Source of the DNA: Bacteroidota bacterium
Lineage (GTDB): Bacteria > Bacteroidota > Ignavibacteria > UBA10030 > UBA8401
DNA: 53,102 nt
Reading direction: 5' to 3'
Assembly: GCA_030679145.1 (NCBI GenBank)
Contig: JAUXTU010000109.1
Span: 1 to 53,102, forward strand
A program made the translations under genes and the position numbers. Within the stretch, counting starts at the first letter, position 1; every line of letters begins with the position of its first letter. The notes beneath the pieces are model-generated. The model ran no database searches. It saw only the letters and a list, made by a program, of their open reading frames with translations, and was not told where the DNA came from. Shown piece after piece: positions 27,617 to 33,693 of this stretch.

Positions 27617-30600
27617 TTATTTTAGAAGAGCATATTCTAAAACATTCAACAATAATTGTTGTGCAATTGGGTCAACTCTTCGAGCATATAATGAATCTGA
27701 AGTTGATGTTCCATTTAACCTGCCGCGTAATTGCAACCTAAAAAGAATAATTTTCCCTTTTCCATATTCCACTTCCGATGCTGCAACAACATTCAAATCC
27801 AATCCGCAGCTTGCAAGCCGTTTCGAGGGAATAGAAAAATCAACATCATACTGCGAAACAATTTCACCGCCATACGCACCATTGAAAAATTTCAAATATT
27901 CTTTTTGAATGTCCCTCCACAACGGATGCGACTGATCTTCAGCAAAGACATACGAATCATAACCACCTTTTTCAAGATCAGCACGTTGATTTATTTTTAG
28001 ATCTATACCATCAACTATTGTGTGCATTTCACTTCCAACAACACGAAATTCAGGTTCTATCAATACAAGAGTTCCGCCATTCTTTACAAGTTGCGATATT
28101 GCATTCCGTCTTTGAATGAACTGTTGGTTTCCGAGAACATTCCCATTAACGATGAGCGTTGTTACATTCTCTAATTTTTCATGCGTAAATTGTAAAAATG
28201 CAATTCCCGAATCTGAAAGATATTCTTCAATTTCTTTTGATGAGTCAAATAAAATAATTTTTTGACCTATCCTCGGTAGAGCTGGTTTCTCAAATAGATA
28301 TGCTGTCTTTGAACTTGTAGCAACTATAGAAGAATCTTCGATCAATTCGGCATAAACATTATAATTTCCAACTTTATCTGGAAAATAAATCTCTTTTGTA
28401 ATTACCAAATCACTCATCGTTTGAACTTCAACAGATATCTCCTTCTTTGAAATCCATTTTCCATCTTGAGATTTGACACCAACTGCCAAATTTCCTCGGC
28501 GCGTTTCATTCGTATCATTAAAGATAAAAAAACGAATTGCCCGCTTCTCATTCACAAAAAAATGCCGATCCCACAATTCAATACTTACGCCAAATGGTGC
28601 AAATGCATTTTTAATCGCTTTCAATAACGGTTTTGGCTGCAAATCTTTAATATCACCCAGAAACCAATGTGCAGTTGGTCCGTCATTATTGCTGATATAC
28701 ACGAATGGCTGAATTGCTTTGATCCGCAGCCGGCGAAACAGTTCAATCAACTCTTGTGCAAGGAATGACTGATGAGCAATAACATCCTCTTTTGTATAAT
28801 TCTTCCCCATCCACCGTTCAACGATCATTTTAGTGAGAACGGTCGGCTCCCATTTATCATTGAACCACCACCACAAAAATTCATTCACCATCGATGGGAC
28901 AGAAAGATTCTCTATCTCATCCAATGAACGCGCAAATCCTAATTTGCGGTTGTTCAACACCATTCCGAGCGAGTAGATGTACGGATGCTCCTCAAGAAAA
29001 TCGACCGATTCCCATGGACGCGTCGGATCGAGTTTTTTCATCTCAGGAACAACCTCCTGCTGTACCGTATCATCCGACGATTCGTTCAACGCATCCCAGA
29101 TGATGATGCTCGGGTGATTCCAGTTATCGTGCATCCATTCGGTAAATTCTTTTCTGATCTGAACATTTGAACCGGTAGCGCCCCAGAATTGCCATTCGTT
29201 TTGGATCAACATTCCATAATCATCTGCTATATCGTACCATCGATTATACATCTGGCCAAGATGATTGCGAAAGAAATTGAAATGATGTTCTTTGGGGATT
29301 TCAATAAGTGCTTTTTTTATCCACACTTCGTTCCACGGCAGTAACTTCCTCTGCGTATCAGAAAGAAATCGATGAAATGCGATGTTGCTTCCTCGAAGGA
29401 GAATCTTTTTTCCATTTAGATAAAAATCCGAACCGACAATTTTGAACTCTCTCATTCCAAAAATAGCCCCACCTAAATCCTCCCCAATGGGGAGGATTTT
29501 TAATGTCTGAAGAATTTTACTTAATACTGCATCAAGATCATTTACAACATCTTCATTTCTAAATCGAATTACTTTGTACCCGTGTTCTTCTAACCATTGT
29601 GTCCTAATCTCGTCGGCTTCGTTATTCTCAGGCAATTGATGGATGAGACCGTCAATTTCTACAACAAGGTTTTTTGACAAACAGACAAAATCGGCAATAT
29701 ACCTGCGTATAATATGCTGCCTTCTAAATTTATAATTTTCGAGAGATTTTGATTTAAGGTGTTCCCACAAAACTAATTCCGCTTTAGTCGGATTTTTGCG
29801 ATGGTCTTTTGCAAACTCTTCGAGCAATGGATAGATCATCGGATCAGCAGTTTGATAGCCAAAAACCCCTTCCCTTTGGGAAGGGGTTGGGGATGGGCGC
29901 TTTATACTGATTTCCACTTCGTACAAAAATGGATAATCGTGCGACCACAATTGCATATTCTGAATCGGAAAATGAAATGTAACTTGCTCTGTGGAATGTT
30001 CGTTGATTGAAATACTCAGATTCTGAATTGTTGAAACAGTTTCACGCGATCGCTTTTCAACAATTTTTGCGGAAACTAATAACGATTCGTGTTTACATTC
30101 GAGACTCTCAATCCAAGCTCGCACTTCTGCAGTGGATGTTTCAATGTGAGGAATCACCTGAACAAGTTTTACTCGAGCACCGCCCACACAAACAAGTGAA
30201 ACATCCCCCCATATTCCCGGTGTATAAATTTCTTTTTCCTGATCTCTGCCAACCGCACTTTCGGGCGGCAGTGTGGATTTAGCTCCCACTCGAACAATCA
30301 ATTCATTTTTCCCCTCCGGATTCAGGAATTCATTCAACAAATATTCATGCGAAGTGTAACAACTGATCGATCCGCCAAGATGATGACCGTTCAGCCACAC
30401 TTCTGTGCCGAACATACTCTGTTCGATCTTTAGAAAAACAGAGTTGACGTGAGATAATTTTTCTATGACAAATGATGTTCGATACCAATGAAAATCAAAT
30501 TTTTCCCAATTGTATGCGGGAACGGCCATATCAACAACGGCAGGAACATTTACTGTTGAGAAAAAGGTAAGAGGGATGGCAGATTTATCGCCGCCAGTTA

Positions 30601-30679
30601 CTTCCCAAACTCCATTGAGAGAAAATGTGTTGCGGGATTTGTGAGAATCAAGAGTGAAATGACTTTGGGACACAATCAA
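27617..30679 (-). CDS. GH2-family glycosidase interrupted in frame by a DUF559 nuclease cassette
   Basis: Residues 1-190 form the GH2 jelly roll (FSLNGVWEV, VWLNGHHLGG, YTPGIWGDVSLV) and 190-260 the immunoglobulin-like domain, ending at FLYEVEISIK. The GH2 sequence resumes at IFGMREFKIVGSDFYLNGKKILLRG (about 406-430) and continues into the TIM barrel with acid/base E533 (WDALNES) and nucleophile E600 (VNEF), both intact. Residues about 261-405 are foreign: PSPTPSQREG, a DUF559 domain (TKAELVLWEHLKSK, RRQHIIRRYIADFVC, VVEIDGLIH, HGYKVIRFRNEDV) and a tail KILPIGEDLGG. The frame is open throughout. The protein has no signal peptide, and the first codon is a TTG directly after the upstream stop, with a GTG at 30673 as alternative. 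Whether the hybrid folds and works is unknown. Confidence 0.88.
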   Translation of the reverse strand: MIVSQSHFTLDSHKSRNTFSLNGVWEVTGGDKSAIPLTFFSTVNVPAVVDMAVPAYNWEKFDFHWYRTSFVIEKLSHVNSVFLKIEQSMFGTEVWLNGHHLGGSISCYTSHEYLLNEFLNPEGKNELIVRVGAKSTLPPESAVGRDQEKEIYTPGIWGDVSLVCVGGARVKLVQVIPHIETSTAEVRAWIESLECKHESLLVSAKIVEKRSRETVSTIQNLSISINEHSTEQVTFHFPIQNMQLWSHDYPFLYEVEISIKRPSPTPSQREGVFGYQTADPMIYPLLEEFAKDHRKNPTKAELVLWEHLKSKSLENYKFRRQHIIRRYIADFVCLSKNLVVEIDGLIHQLPENNEADEIRTQWLEEHGYKVIRFRNEDVVNDLDAVLSKILQTLKILPIGEDLGGAIFGMREFKIVGSDFYLNGKKILLRGSNIAFHRFLSDTQRKLLPWNEVWIKKALIEIPKEHHFNFFRNHLGQMYNRWYDIADDYGMLIQNEWQFWGATGSNVQIRKEFTEWMHDNWNHPSIIIWDALNESSDDTVQQEVVPEMKKLDPTRPWESVDFLEEHPYIYSLGMVLNNRKLGFARSLDEIENLSVPSMVNEFLWWWFNDKWEPTVLTKMIVERWMGKNYTKEDVIAHQSFLAQELIELFRRLRIKAIQPFVYISNNDGPTAHWFLGDIKDLQPKPLLKAIKNAFAPFGVSIELWDRHFFVNEKRAIRFFIFNDTNETRRGNLAVGVKSQDGKWISKKEISVEVQTMSDLVITKEIYFPDKVGNYNVYAELIEDSSIVATSSKTAYLFEKPALPRIGQKIILFDSSKEIEEYLSDSGIAFLQFTHEKLENVTTLIVNGNVLGNQQFIQRRNAISQLVKNGGTLVLIEPEFRVVGSEMHTIVDGIDLKINQRADLEKGGYDSYVFAEDQSHPLWRDIQKEYLKFFNGAYGGEIVSQYDVDFSIPSKRLASCGLDLNVVAASEVEYGKGKIILFRLQLRGRLNGTSTSDSLYARRVDPIAQQLLLNVLEYALLK
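29475..29499. repeat. Left hairpin of DUF559 cassette
   Basis: Arms AAATCCTCCCC and GGGGAGGATTT are perfectly complementary around the loop AAT. It is translated as the KILPIGEDLGG tail of the foreign domain. Confidence 0.85.
29864..29888. repeat. Right hairpin of DUF559 cassette
   Basis: Arms AACCCCTTCCC and GGGAAGGGGTT are perfectly complementary around the loop TTT. It is translated as the TPSQREGVFG entrance of the foreign domain. Stem and loop lengths equal those of the left hairpin. Confidence 0.85.
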
Positions 30680-32062
30680 TTATTTTTTCTTTGGTGAATT
30701 GTCAAGCCAACCGCCGGTGAATCCGGCGCGATGCAATCCTTTTACGATGTATGGATTTTTTTTCATCGTTTCCCAAACAAAACCATTGCGATAATTTTCG
30801 ATCATTAATGCAATTGGTCCTTGATCAATTCCAAGATAATCATGATCAAACCACCCGTTTGGTGTATCCGGAGTGATGTATGTAGGATTAAAAGCATCCA
30901 AGAATCCATACTTCGTCCATAGCTTATCACCATACTTGTTGCGCATGGCTTTTAGTGCTGGAATGGTGATCTCCGGTGCAAATGGAATTGAACCTCCAAC
31001 AGCAGTTGGTGCGATTGTTCCATCGTCTAAATGTTCATCGGCACCTGTTCCGCGCGCGGAATATGAACGAAAGTCTCGTTTAATTCCATTTACTTCAAAG
31101 ATTGTATCTTTCGGTCCGTCGCATGCGGTCATTCCCCAGATGGAATCAGCATAATCGATCCATTTGTTTGGATTTTGTCTTGCATATTCATAATGAACGT
31201 ACGTGGCACGACGAGAATTCTCAAAATAATCTATCCCTTTCTTTCGCATATAATCGTCTTTAATTCCGCGAAAGTCGATCCATACATGCGAATATTGATG
31301 ACCGAAGAGAGGCATAAAATTGATGTGTTCCTGTCCATAATATTCTTTCCATATATACTTCTCTGTCCATGCATTCCATACAGTGATAGGAACAGGAAAC
31401 GTCGGAGAACCGAGTGCAAGAATGTTGAGGATCATCGCTTCATTATACCCGCTCCAAATTGATTGATGAAAACCATCCTCAGGTTTCCAACCCATTGTGA
31501 TTCCTTTTCGGTCACTCATCATCCATTTCCAATCGACACGACAATAGAGAGAATCAGCAAGGGTACGAATTTCTTTCTCAACGATTGAATTATTGTCAAA
31601 ATAGGATTGACAAAATAAGATTCCAGCCATTAATAATCCCGTATCAATGGTAGAAAGTTCACAATTCCATTCGCGAAGACCGGATGTTGGTTTAAGGAAA
31701 TGGTAGAACAATCCGCGGTAGCCGGATGTCTTTATTTTTTTGGAACTTTGAGGGAGTTTCCAGAAGAACCGAAGTGTATTCACTGTTCGTTCGGCTGCTT
31801 CTTCGCGAGAAATTATTTTTCGTTCAACAGCAACGGGATATGTCGTCAATGCAAAACCGACTGCGGCAATGCTTGAAGGCTGCCGCTCGGTCGGCCAGCG
31901 ATCAAGAGTCAGTCCGGTCTCTTTTGGCGTAACATCAAGAAACCATTGAATCGTGCGTTGTTGTACCGTATCAAGAAATGGATCCCACATTTTCTGTTGT
32001 TGACCAAATGATGATACGGAAAGAGATACGGTGGCAAGAATAATAAAGATATTTATTTTCAT
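30680..32062 (-). CDS. GH144-like (PF10091) endo-beta-1,2-glucanase candidate, no sorting domain
   Basis: The 460-residue protein has a signal peptide (1-20) and one (alpha/alpha)6 domain with the family hallmarks ELSTIDTGLLMAGIL, FGHQYSHVWIDFR, IDYFENSRRAT, DDGTIAPTAVGGSIPFAPE, KYGFLDAFNP and GIDQGPIALMIENYRNG. PF10091 was long annotated glucoamylase, but characterised bacterial members (GH144) are endo-beta-1,2-glucanases. Unlike its two paralogues in this locus it ends at NSPKKK with no T9SS domain, so it should stay in the periplasm and could trim imported oligosaccharides. Its stop codon directly abuts the GH2 start. Catalytic residues are not assigned because I have no alignment. Confidence 0.87.
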   Translation of the reverse strand: MKINIFIILATVSLSVSSFGQQQKMWDPFLDTVQQRTIQWFLDVTPKETGLTLDRWPTERQPSSIAAVGFALTTYPVAVERKIISREEAAERTVNTLRFFWKLPQSSKKIKTSGYRGLFYHFLKPTSGLREWNCELSTIDTGLLMAGILFCQSYFDNNSIVEKEIRTLADSLYCRVDWKWMMSDRKGITMGWKPEDGFHQSIWSGYNEAMILNILALGSPTFPVPITVWNAWTEKYIWKEYYGQEHINFMPLFGHQYSHVWIDFRGIKDDYMRKKGIDYFENSRRATYVHYEYARQNPNKWIDYADSIWGMTACDGPKDTIFEVNGIKRDFRSYSARGTGADEHLDDGTIAPTAVGGSIPFAPEITIPALKAMRNKYGDKLWTKYGFLDAFNPTYITPDTPNGWFDHDYLGIDQGPIALMIENYRNGFVWETMKKNPYIVKGLHRAGFTGGWLDNSPKKK

Positions 32063-32100
32063 GGCGTGGTTTAATTGTTGTGTTATGATTTTTACAAATA

Positions 32101-33693
32101 TTATTTTGCAAGCACCATTTTTTTTGCCTGCGAAAAACTCCCTGCAGTGATCTTATAAAAATATACTCCGCTTGGTAACGAATATGTTTCTGCAGAAAAT
32201 GGAAATTCATGATTCCCCGCAGACTGCATTTGATTAATAAGCGTTGCTATTTTTTTACCAAGCAAATCGTACACGCTAAGATTGACAAATGAATTTTTGG
32301 GCAATTGATAACTGATCACTGTTGCTGGATTAAATGGATTTGGATAATTCTGAGATAAGGAAAAATATTTTGGTACTGATTTCTCCTGCTCAACAGATGT
32401 AATTGTGGTAAATTTTGCCACTGTTAACCCCCGCTGCACATCCGGATTTTTCATGAAACGATTCCACACAGATTGATTTCGATAATTCTCAATCATAATG
32501 ATAATTGGTCCTTGGTCGATACCAATAACATCCGGTCCCCACCAATTGACATTCAAATTAAATGCATCTCGAAAGCCATACTTAGTCCATAATTGTGAAT
32601 GGTAATTGTTCCACATATTTTTTATTACAGGAATAACAACTTCCGGTGCAAATGGAATTGAACTGATCGGGGCAGTTGGTACTATTGTTCCGTCATCATT
32701 TTCTGCGGGCGGTGCACCATGTGCCGCGTATCCTCCGGGAACATCACTTGCAGTTATTCCCCACAACGAATCGCTATATCCCTTATGCCCTTTGGGATTC
32801 GCAATACTATATGCGCGTTGAGCAAGTGTTGCACGTCGAGAATTCTCAAAATAATCAAGGTTATGTTCTTTCATCCAATCATCAGCAATATTTCTGAAAT
32901 CGATCCAGCAATGGGAGTATTGATGACCGAACAGCGGAGCAAAATTGACATATAAATAACCATATTGAAATTCGTAATTTGAGTTATACCCGTCAGTCCA
33001 TTTTTGCCAAGCTGTATAATCAACCGGATATGTGGGTGAACCAAGTGCAAAAATATACATTAACGATGCTTCATTATAACCAACCCACTGACCATAATTA
33101 CCAAAACCGGTTCCCGGCATCCATCCCATAAGAATTCCAGGATTAAAGTTGCGCATTAAATCCCAATTCATCCTATAATAAATTGAATCGGAGAAATTGC
33201 GAATCAATGTTTCAACAGAATCCGAACCAGTAAAATATTGTTTCATATCAATTATGCCGGCAAGCAGCAGCGCTGTATCGATGGTTGATAATTCGCTGTT
33301 CCATGTTCTTTTGGCAGTATTCATATCGAGGAAGTGATAGAACAAACCGTACTTGCCAGCGTAGGCATTTCCATCTCCTTGCGGTGCATACCAAAATGTT
33401 TTTAAAGTAGTGAGCACCCGATCTTTTGCTGCTGTTCGACTTACCCATCCATGATCGACACCAATGCAAATTGCCGTTAAACCAAATCCAACGGATGCAA
33501 TGCTGCATGGCGCGTCAGAAATTCCCGTGGCTTTACCTCTGTCTCGTATGAGTCCATTTGCTGGATTGGCTTCATTCCAGAAAAAATTAAACGCAGTATG
33601 CTGGATCGTATCAAGCAATGCTTCGGTGGTAATTTGGGCCGAAGCGGTGGAAGTGCATAGAAAAAAAAAGGTAATGATTGCTTTTGTTTTCAT
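32101..33693 (-). CDS. GH144-like (PF10091) glucanase with T9SS sorting domain
   Basis: The signal peptide (1-19) is followed directly by the catalytic domain (about 23-435) with WNSELSTIDTALLLAGI, FGHQYSHCWIDFRN, LDYFENSRRATLAQRAY, WGITASD, DDGTIVPTAPISSIPFAPE and GIDQGPIIIMIENYRN. The C-terminal ~80 residues are a type IX sorting domain (FSLSQNYPNPFNPATVISY, LSVYDLLGKKIATL, SGVYFYKI, KKMVLAK), so the enzyme should be exported to the surface or medium. It lies between the periplasmic paralogue and the SGNH hydrolase gene. Surface endo-cleavage of a large or cyclic glucan before import is the natural role. Confidence 0.9.
   Translation of the reverse strand: MKTKAIITFFFLCTSTASAQITTEALLDTIQHTAFNFFWNEANPANGLIRDRGKATGISDAPCSIASVGFGLTAICIGVDHGWVSRTAAKDRVLTTLKTFWYAPQGDGNAYAGKYGLFYHFLDMNTAKRTWNSELSTIDTALLLAGIIDMKQYFTGSDSVETLIRNFSDSIYYRMNWDLMRNFNPGILMGWMPGTGFGNYGQWVGYNEASLMYIFALGSPTYPVDYTAWQKWTDGYNSNYEFQYGYLYVNFAPLFGHQYSHCWIDFRNIADDWMKEHNLDYFENSRRATLAQRAYSIANPKGHKGYSDSLWGITASDVPGGYAAHGAPPAENDDGTIVPTAPISSIPFAPEVVIPVIKNMWNNYHSQLWTKYGFRDAFNLNVNWWGPDVIGIDQGPIIIMIENYRNQSVWNRFMKNPDVQRGLTVAKFTTITSVEQEKSVPKYFSLSQNYPNPFNPATVISYQLPKNSFVNLSVYDLLGKKIATLINQMQSAGNHEFPFSAETYSLPSGVYFYKITAGSFSQAKKMVLAK

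Follow-up and report, generated by a model that had tools for sequence, protein, structure and literature searches.

A DUF559 nuclease element with hairpin ends in frame within a GH2 gene, and its relatives in other bacterial enzymes

Results

The element and its host gene

The stretch of DNA analyzed here, hereafter the window, comprises 53,102 nucleotides of contig JAUXTU010000109.1 from a Bacteroidota bacterium (assembly GCA_030679145.1, genome G000). On its minus strand, an open frame of 1020 codons (27617-30679) encodes a GH2 protein in which Pfam places a DUF559 domain at residues 287-393 (E 4e-35), with GH2 domains on either side. The match to DUF559 (PF04480) reaches 120.4 bits, against a curated cut-off of 20.6. 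The upstream host part covers residues 1-260 and the downstream part residues 406-1020, and the letters E533 (in LNES) and E600 (in VNEF) are both present, their catalytic role being putative. Next to the GH2 gene, and in the same orientation, lie two apparently related open reading frames of 460 and 530 residues (30680-33693).

Measured from tag to tag, the whole element covers 433 bp of the minus strand (29466-29898), with inverted ends GCCCATCC and GGTGGGGC. Read in the sense of the gene, it consists of a 5' tag (29889-29898, minus strand, GCCCATCCCC), a perfect hairpin at 29864-29888 with an 11-bp stem and a 3-base loop, which is read through in the host frame, the nuclease domain (29501-29863, minus strand), a second perfect hairpin at 29475-29499 with a 12-bp stem and a 1-base loop (equivalent to 11 bp with a 3-base loop), and a 3' tag (29466-29474, minus strand, AGGTGGGGC). 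The Pfam and genome matches to the nuclease span 29501-29821, and its assignment also draws on a predicted model, its fold and its conserved residues. The inversion of the ends is imperfect, as seen when the minus-strand GCCCATCCCCAA plus hairpin is compared with the reverse complement of the other end, GCCCCACCTAAA plus hairpin. The 3' end TTGGGGAGGATTTAGGTGGGGC also closes a copy found in MetH (L107). The insert amounts to roughly 145 codons, mostly DUF559 plus short linkers. The original prediction had described a DUF559 nuclease cassette in frame inside a GH2 enzyme, bounded by two perfect hairpins and imperfect inverted termini, and both its coordinates and its description proved right.

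Most GH2 orthologues lack the insert

The C-terminal part of the GH2 protein was searched in 80 related genomes, with matches in 50 of them, and the 25 best loci were read. The insert was present in two, the window genome and G010, which belongs to another genus of the same family, and absent from the other 23, including G003, the closest GH2 by sequence (81%). Orthologues without the insert are mostly around 885-920 residues long and have a loop of about 11-13 residues at the corresponding position. In the window gene these 11-13 host residues before FGMREF (QEGKNILDDMRTT in G003) are replaced, in such a way that the event is not a pure insertion. An insert in every GH2 orthologue and no hairpin copies elsewhere would be the picture opposed to a mobile element, and it is not what we found, as 23 of the 25 loci lack the insert and hairpin units free of DUF559 occur in the same genome.

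In a tree of the GH2 C-terminal part, G000 and G003 group together (99/97) with G010 outside (98/92), whereas the inserts of G000 and G010 are sisters in the DUF559 tree (100/96) and share 79% identity. The disagreement between both trees indicates that the insert was gained or lost more than once in this group, or that it moved between lineages. Identity windows along the G000 and G010 loci gave no clear case of local recombination around the insert. The hairpins of the G010 insert differ from those of G000 and are again perfect. In the GH2 hybrid of G010 (L027/L101), some 18 residues are missing immediately ahead of the LNES motif, and this GH2 may therefore be inactive.

C-rich hairpins accompany DUF559 genes

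The pattern CCCYTCCN{1,9}GGARGGG was found at 18 places in the 3.8-Mb genome that contains the window, against none for a reversed-pattern control, so that the window hairpins are more than chance. This genome holds seven DUF559 matches, one of them truncated; by eye, the six longer ones are flanked by C-rich hairpins and a short tag, with long and imperfect hairpins in one case (L006). Seven of the 18 places lie in the window element or in an array on contig C87, and 11 lie away from DUF559 matches; nine of these 11 were read, eight carrying both ACCACCCC and GGGGTGGT ends and one a single end. The existence of hairpin units without DUF559 elsewhere in the same genome supports the earlier proposal of a mobile family bounded by hairpin ends. 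In the C87 array (L003/L004), hairpin units of about 100 bp with ACCACCCCT/AGGGGTGGT ends are interleaved with two very similar DUF559 genes.

The relation holds across genomes. DUF559 was detected in 43 of 75 genomes of the order, where most of the DUF559 frames listed are shorter than 240 residues. The pattern CCCYYTCCN{1,9}GGARRGGG was counted 218 times in the 43 genomes with DUF559 and 32 times in the 32 without it, with 12 and 13 counts, respectively, for the reversed pattern (Spearman 0.51; Mann-Whitney p 2e-4, which is a guide only because the genomes are related). No pattern was present in 11 of the 43 genomes with DUF559, and at least one place was found in 14 of the 32 without it.

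Flanks were analyzed at 36 DUF559 loci, 3 of them in frame (L001, L049, L084) and 33 not, after skipping 18 of 54 loci with short or cut flanks. The density of hairpins with a C-rich first arm falls from 5.8 per kb within 100 bp of the gene to 0.14 per kb beyond 800 bp, and a single mirror hairpin, with the purine arm first, was found around all these loci. When any six-pyrimidine run in the arm was accepted, 27 of the 36 loci were positive, with hairpins on both sides in 20, on one side in 7 and on neither in 9, compared with 0, 1 and 35 at control positions 800-1000 bp away. A stricter test that considers only the innermost stem bases undercounts, with 18 of 36 loci positive (in 34 loci, both sides 6, one side 8, none 20). 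At loci free of the insert, such hairpins occur at 0.019 per kb for GH2 and 0 per kb for MetH.

Ten plasmid copies of DUF559 from Cyanobacteriota, Pseudomonadota and Deinococcota, among the 40 matches listed, have hairpins within 200 bp, on both sides in six and on one side in four; the near hairpins of one of them (L255) mean less, since 11 more are found further away on that plasmid. In three Deinococcus plasmids (L251, L252, L253), DUF559 with its hairpins occupies three different gaps of the same annotated hpa cluster, and in a Sphingomonas plasmid (L254) it lies between sufB and sufC.

All these observations could be accommodated by a system like that of REP sequences and their RAYT transposases, in which DUF559 would nick or cut hairpin ends, as single or double strands, and copy the units, the in-frame copies being the survivors of random landing. 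Hairpins on both sides of the gene, their number in genomes, the dispersed units with both ends, the plasmid copies in three other phyla and stand-alone DUF559 genes with dispersed hairpins fit such a system well. We nevertheless regard it as unlikely as a general explanation, though deserving serious weight, because of the nature of the domain and the repeated use of one site in MetH, both described below. The hairpins might also be moved by other machinery, with DUF559 as a passenger. Hairpin units without DUF559 and the pattern places in genomes that lack the gene are in line with this idea, and the case for mobility of DUF559 itself is a comparative one. On the other hand, hairpin number tracks DUF559, the two ends match within each element and the nuclease residues are conserved, so a passenger role appears improbable.

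Related elements reside in frame in eleven enzyme families

To place the window element among its relatives, the DUF559 domain of the window type was used to scan one genome per species, and the best 80 of 566 relatives were kept, all of them from Bacteroidota or Ignavibacteriota according to their records. Hosts were assigned by clusters of flanking sequence, with one or more representatives of each cluster scanned against Pfam and NCBIfam. Among these best 80, 77 are in frame in host open reading frames of 11 enzyme families; the others are two stand-alone genes (L177, L180) and a fragment (L112). As only the best 80 of 566 were kept, the proportion describes this subfamily and not DUF559 at large. 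MetH is the most frequent host (41 loci), with four sites in use: one before the B12 domain (35 loci), two in the activation part (3 and 2) and one in the homocysteine domain (a single locus). It is followed by MetRS (9), CinA (7), adenine deaminase (4), IleRS, RecG, LeuRS and AroC (3 each), an IcmF-like mutase (2), and PurL and urocanate hydratase (1 each). A relative was found in 168 of 392 genomes of the phylum; for 29 of the 30 best rows, counted by eye, the surrounding frame is 417 codons or longer.

The host parts are otherwise continuous. The MetRS hybrid L157 is colinear with the structure 1rqg over 23-264 and 421-889, with about three residues missing; the MetH hybrid L136 is colinear with 9ssp across its interdomain linker, and the CinA hybrid L149 with 6mr3 on both sides of the insert. 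The suggestion that the element is able to land in frame because its hairpins are open reading frames is supported, and in-frame residence appears as a habit of the subfamily rather than an accident.

Further in-frame cases are two DNA methyltransferases of genome G041. The same methyltransferases and a neighboring open reading frame also show, by eye, apparent single in-frame hairpin stretches without DUF559 (L097, L098), which are possible non-autonomous copies. In a plasmid of Pseudanabaena galeata (L256), DUF559 lies inside a single annotated coding sequence of 4866 nt with a methyltransferase-like motif downstream, which, as read by eye, is an in-frame case outside Bacteroidota. Two other candidates selected by frame length (L099 in G017 and L100 in G023) were discarded, as by eye they read as helicases with an ordinary DUF559-like fusion domain.

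The ends are often paired hairpins and encode probable linkers

The ends of in-frame copies were tested in the 72 of 80 loci with long frames and enough flank, requiring a hairpin with a C-rich first arm and a stem of at least 5 bp. Such a hairpin was found at the 5' end of 50 copies, at the 3' end of 54 and at both ends of 40, 22 copies thus lacking one by this test on the 5' side and 18 on the 3' side. Host control positions 400 nt away gave 0 of 72 on each side, and purine-first controls at the ends gave 3 and 1 (shuffled expectation, 0.2 each).

Each element also has ends that resemble each other. When the 5' end of an element was compared with its own 3' end in reverse complement, the mean match was 16.7 (75 elements), against 12.6 for ends of different elements, 14.2 for the largest of 10,000 permutation means and 8.4 for host control positions; relatedness is only partly controlled in this comparison, and the own end was best or tied in only 10 of the 75 elements. 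In an alignment of 18 5' ends, stem positions pair in 91% of cells (86% in shuffles), nine cells carry double changes (2.6 in shuffles, reached in 0 of 500), three stem pairs have a double change (1.5 in shuffles; 16 of 500), and covariation is 0.168 compared with at most 0.108 when the alignment is slid. The number of further pair types, one of five covariation measures, showed no excess over shuffles in these 18 rows (3 against 4.4). At the protein level, the linkers of 74 of the 80 loci (long frames, enough flank) contain 25% Pro plus Gly, compared with 10% in the host parts.

The nuclease is conserved and has a Vsr-like fold

An alignment of 66 DUF559 rows has as invariant positions W33, the FRRQH motif (46-50), I56, E69, G72, H75 and D84, with E29, D58 and D71 nearly invariant. 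Candidates for the EDxHD residues of Vsr-like homing endonucleases can be proposed among them (E29, D58, E69, D71, H75 and D84). The dN/dS values, which rest on few unsaturated pairs, were computable in 6 of 10 pairs other than window and G010, with 0.04-0.09 in five of them, four of which have dS above 1.7, and 0.23 in a sixth pair that is nearly identical; the comparison of the window insert with that of G010 gave dN 0.12 and a saturated dS of 3.4.

The model of the window DUF559 domain (pLDDT 80.5) most closely resembles 3hrl, a DUF559 protein (Z 15.3), followed by the homing endonuclease I-Bth0305I (3r3p; Z 10.7, rmsd 3.0 over 93 aligned residues) and Vsr (Z 8.7). Foldseek likewise recovered 3hrl (E 7e-9) and I-Bth0305I (E 8e-5); mitochondrial ribosome proteins (Z 9.1) and FASTKD4 are among the other matches given by Foldseek and VIA. 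The original prediction had drawn a parallel with RAYT elements, with a different nuclease fold. The difference in fold was borne out, the domain being DUF559 with a fold like that of Vsr and I-Bth0305I and not a RAYT, which speaks against the RAYT-like system; this fold points instead to homing endonucleases, with a hairpin-driven route as the main rival.

In a predicted model of one MetH hybrid (pLDDT 76.9), the nuclease and its neighboring host domains are mostly above 70, and the stretches that flank the nuclease (115-127 and 248-255) are below 50. The nuclease is thus predicted to fold separately, tethered by linkers, and the pTM of 0.43 leaves the relative placement of the domains open.

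The location of the element, in frame in conserved enzymes as inteins are and with hairpins at its ends that might act as signals, raises the question of whether the enzyme functions only once the insert is gone, through removal as an intein, as an intron or by translational bypassing. Against removal, Pfam and NCBIfam matched no splicing domain in the window hybrid or in 16 further hybrids, and DUF559 takes up the greater part of the insert of roughly 145 codons. The element also takes the place of host codons instead of only interrupting them, and the model predicts the nuclease as a domain tethered by linkers. A group I or group II intron is likewise disfavored by the open frame and the linkers. 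We consider removal very improbable.

Filled and empty sites alternate, and the nuclease changes hosts

The first MetH site was studied within one genus, presumably Flavobacterium as judged from 86-88% identity to a protein of F. micromati. Among its 101 genomes, 94 had a match, and at least 11 are filled at this site. Nineteen further MetH loci of the genus were read, all empty at the first site, 18 of them reading ...GDKxGN GKI... at the position of the element in filled alleles; one of the loci empty there (L243) is filled at another MetH site. The 3' junction of the 11 filled alleles is nearly constant (GAG[KR]), L226 having four more residues, and the 5' junction varies by several codons (EASK|RPP, FI|SPP, MNQ|APP and others).

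A tree built from host sequence only, with 30 MetH loci that are the best matches of this genus and not a random draw, requires three changes between filled and empty, all forced by starred branches, against a mean of 9.2 when states are shuffled. The filled L217 is the sister of the empty L228 (97/90). A co-conversion tract was looked for around the filled L217 and L218 and not seen, as their flanks are no closer to other filled alleles than to empty relatives, so ordinary horizontal recombination could also explain the recurrence.

The DUF559 tree (82 rows) requires at least 25 changes of host over 16 labels. For the 12 host groups with at least two rows, 21 changes are needed, between the least possible number of 11 and a shuffled mean of 41.6; this tree is based on few columns, many of its forks are open, and two MetH sites share the label 'MetH2'. 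Host gene is strongly clustered on this tree, so most copies would have been inherited with their host, with jumps. Starred clades mix MetRS with adenine deaminase, MetH with IleRS, LeuRS with PurL, and two MetH sites.

The clustering by host gene and the retention of nuclease residues inside host proteins are also what would be expected from a domain gained to the benefit of the host enzyme and inherited normally. The presence of the same domain in unrelated enzymes, at four places of MetH and with a patchy distribution within a single genus makes this extremely unlikely. The use of the same MetH site in 35 of the best 80 loci and in separate lineages of one genus is equally unlike the random landing expected from a RAYT-like system. 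Close relatives differ in whether a site is filled or empty, and different host genes are intermingled in the nuclease tree, so the element moves; movement is in this sense demonstrated by comparison of sequences. It carries its own nuclease, has inverted hairpin ends, resides in frame in housekeeping enzymes, occupies its sites in a patchy manner and switches hosts, and is thus a mobile element.

Discussion

The explanation that we favor, with a probability of around 0.6, is that of a selfish element in which a DUF559 nuclease of the Vsr/EDxHD type lies between inverted ends made of tag and hairpin, resides in frame and unspliced, and most likely spreads in a homing-like manner. The hairpin ends would play a double role, as the DNA ends of the element and as codons for Pro/Gly-rich linkers, in such a way that the nuclease would be an additional domain attached to a loop or an interdomain linker, and the host enzyme could still fold. 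The nuclease would be expressed from the host promoter, and frameshifts would be punished by selection on the host enzyme. The nuclease, or the hybrid, would cut the uninterrupted allele near a conserved site, repair would copy the element in with replacement of a few host codons, and a rarer ectopic copying would carry it to a new host gene. Cutting, the repair route, the absence of splicing and the host enzyme activity of the hybrids are steps that we infer; for residence without splicing, the reasons are that no splicing domain appears among the matches and that host codons are replaced. Two observations lead us to prefer homing, the repeated use of one MetH site by separate lineages and the fold of the nuclease; the variable 5' junctions lower our confidence in it. 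Homing and hairpin-directed routes could both hold, in different branches.

Inteins are nuclease parasites that sit in frame in conserved housekeeping enzymes, with a patchy distribution and re-use of sites. The DUF559 element shares these traits, with a nuclease inside and with empty alleles as found here. It differs in that no Hint splicing domain was matched in the window hybrid and 16 others, in the replacement of host codons, in its hairpin DNA ends and in that it probably stays in the protein. The resemblance to I-Bth0305I and other EDxHD (Vsr-like) homing endonucleases lies in the nuclease fold (Z 10.7). To our knowledge, hairpin ends are no feature of homing endonucleases. I-Bth0305I recognizes a very long target and possesses long additional DNA-binding regions, and its family is placed with the endonucleases of group I introns (PMC3943268); no such regions were seen in the DUF559 element. 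A DUF559 gene is already filed under EDxHD (PMC9403480), and a Caulobacter Vsr-like protein appears in the DUF559 literature (PMC12907096).

Two systems come close in other respects. The ShiLan domain of a phage methylase (PMC11855218) is also an insertion open in the host frame, predicted to remain unspliced, with a homing pattern and an encoded nuclease, but that nuclease is of the HNH type and in another frame, the phage gene is non-essential, and no hairpin ends are described in the text consulted. Rickettsia palindromic elements (PMC2229807) lie likewise in frame inside conserved proteins, and a guanylate kinase hybrid is active; they are of 105-146 bp with no nuclease mentioned in the text consulted, whereas the DUF559 element is a nuclease between two hairpins. 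REP/REPIN sequences with RAYT share with our element the tag plus palindrome, the inverted pairs, the gene-free copies and a nuclease gene flanked by repeats, and differ in that RAYT is a transposase of the HUH Y1 type and our domain is DUF559 by Pfam and by fold. REPs are extragenic, and DUF559 hairpin elements are often in coding frames. A search of titles and abstract starts in open-licence PMC articles, weak evidence of absence for that reason, found no description of in-frame DUF559 elements or of a link between DUF559 and hairpins.

These elements look like a little-noticed kind of selfish DNA. Whether they form a class of their own, non-splicing homing nucleases that reside in frame and use palindromic ends as both recognition ends and linker code, as a branch of a DUF559-hairpin system present in at least four phyla, is a more tentative proposal, to which we give slightly less than even odds.

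According to the usual logic, a nuclease that parasitizes a conserved gene has to be removed by splicing, as happens with inteins and introns. The DUF559 element appears to skip this step by sitting in loops with built-in linkers. If true, this would explain much of the widespread DUF559 family of unknown function and the C-rich hairpin repeats that surround it, as well as the unusual additional domains that MetH, tRNA synthetases and RecG have in Bacteroidota. The DUF559 hybrids would be natural examples of domain insertion into enzymes, and the idea that a palindromic DNA may serve mobility and protein linker coding at once becomes testable.
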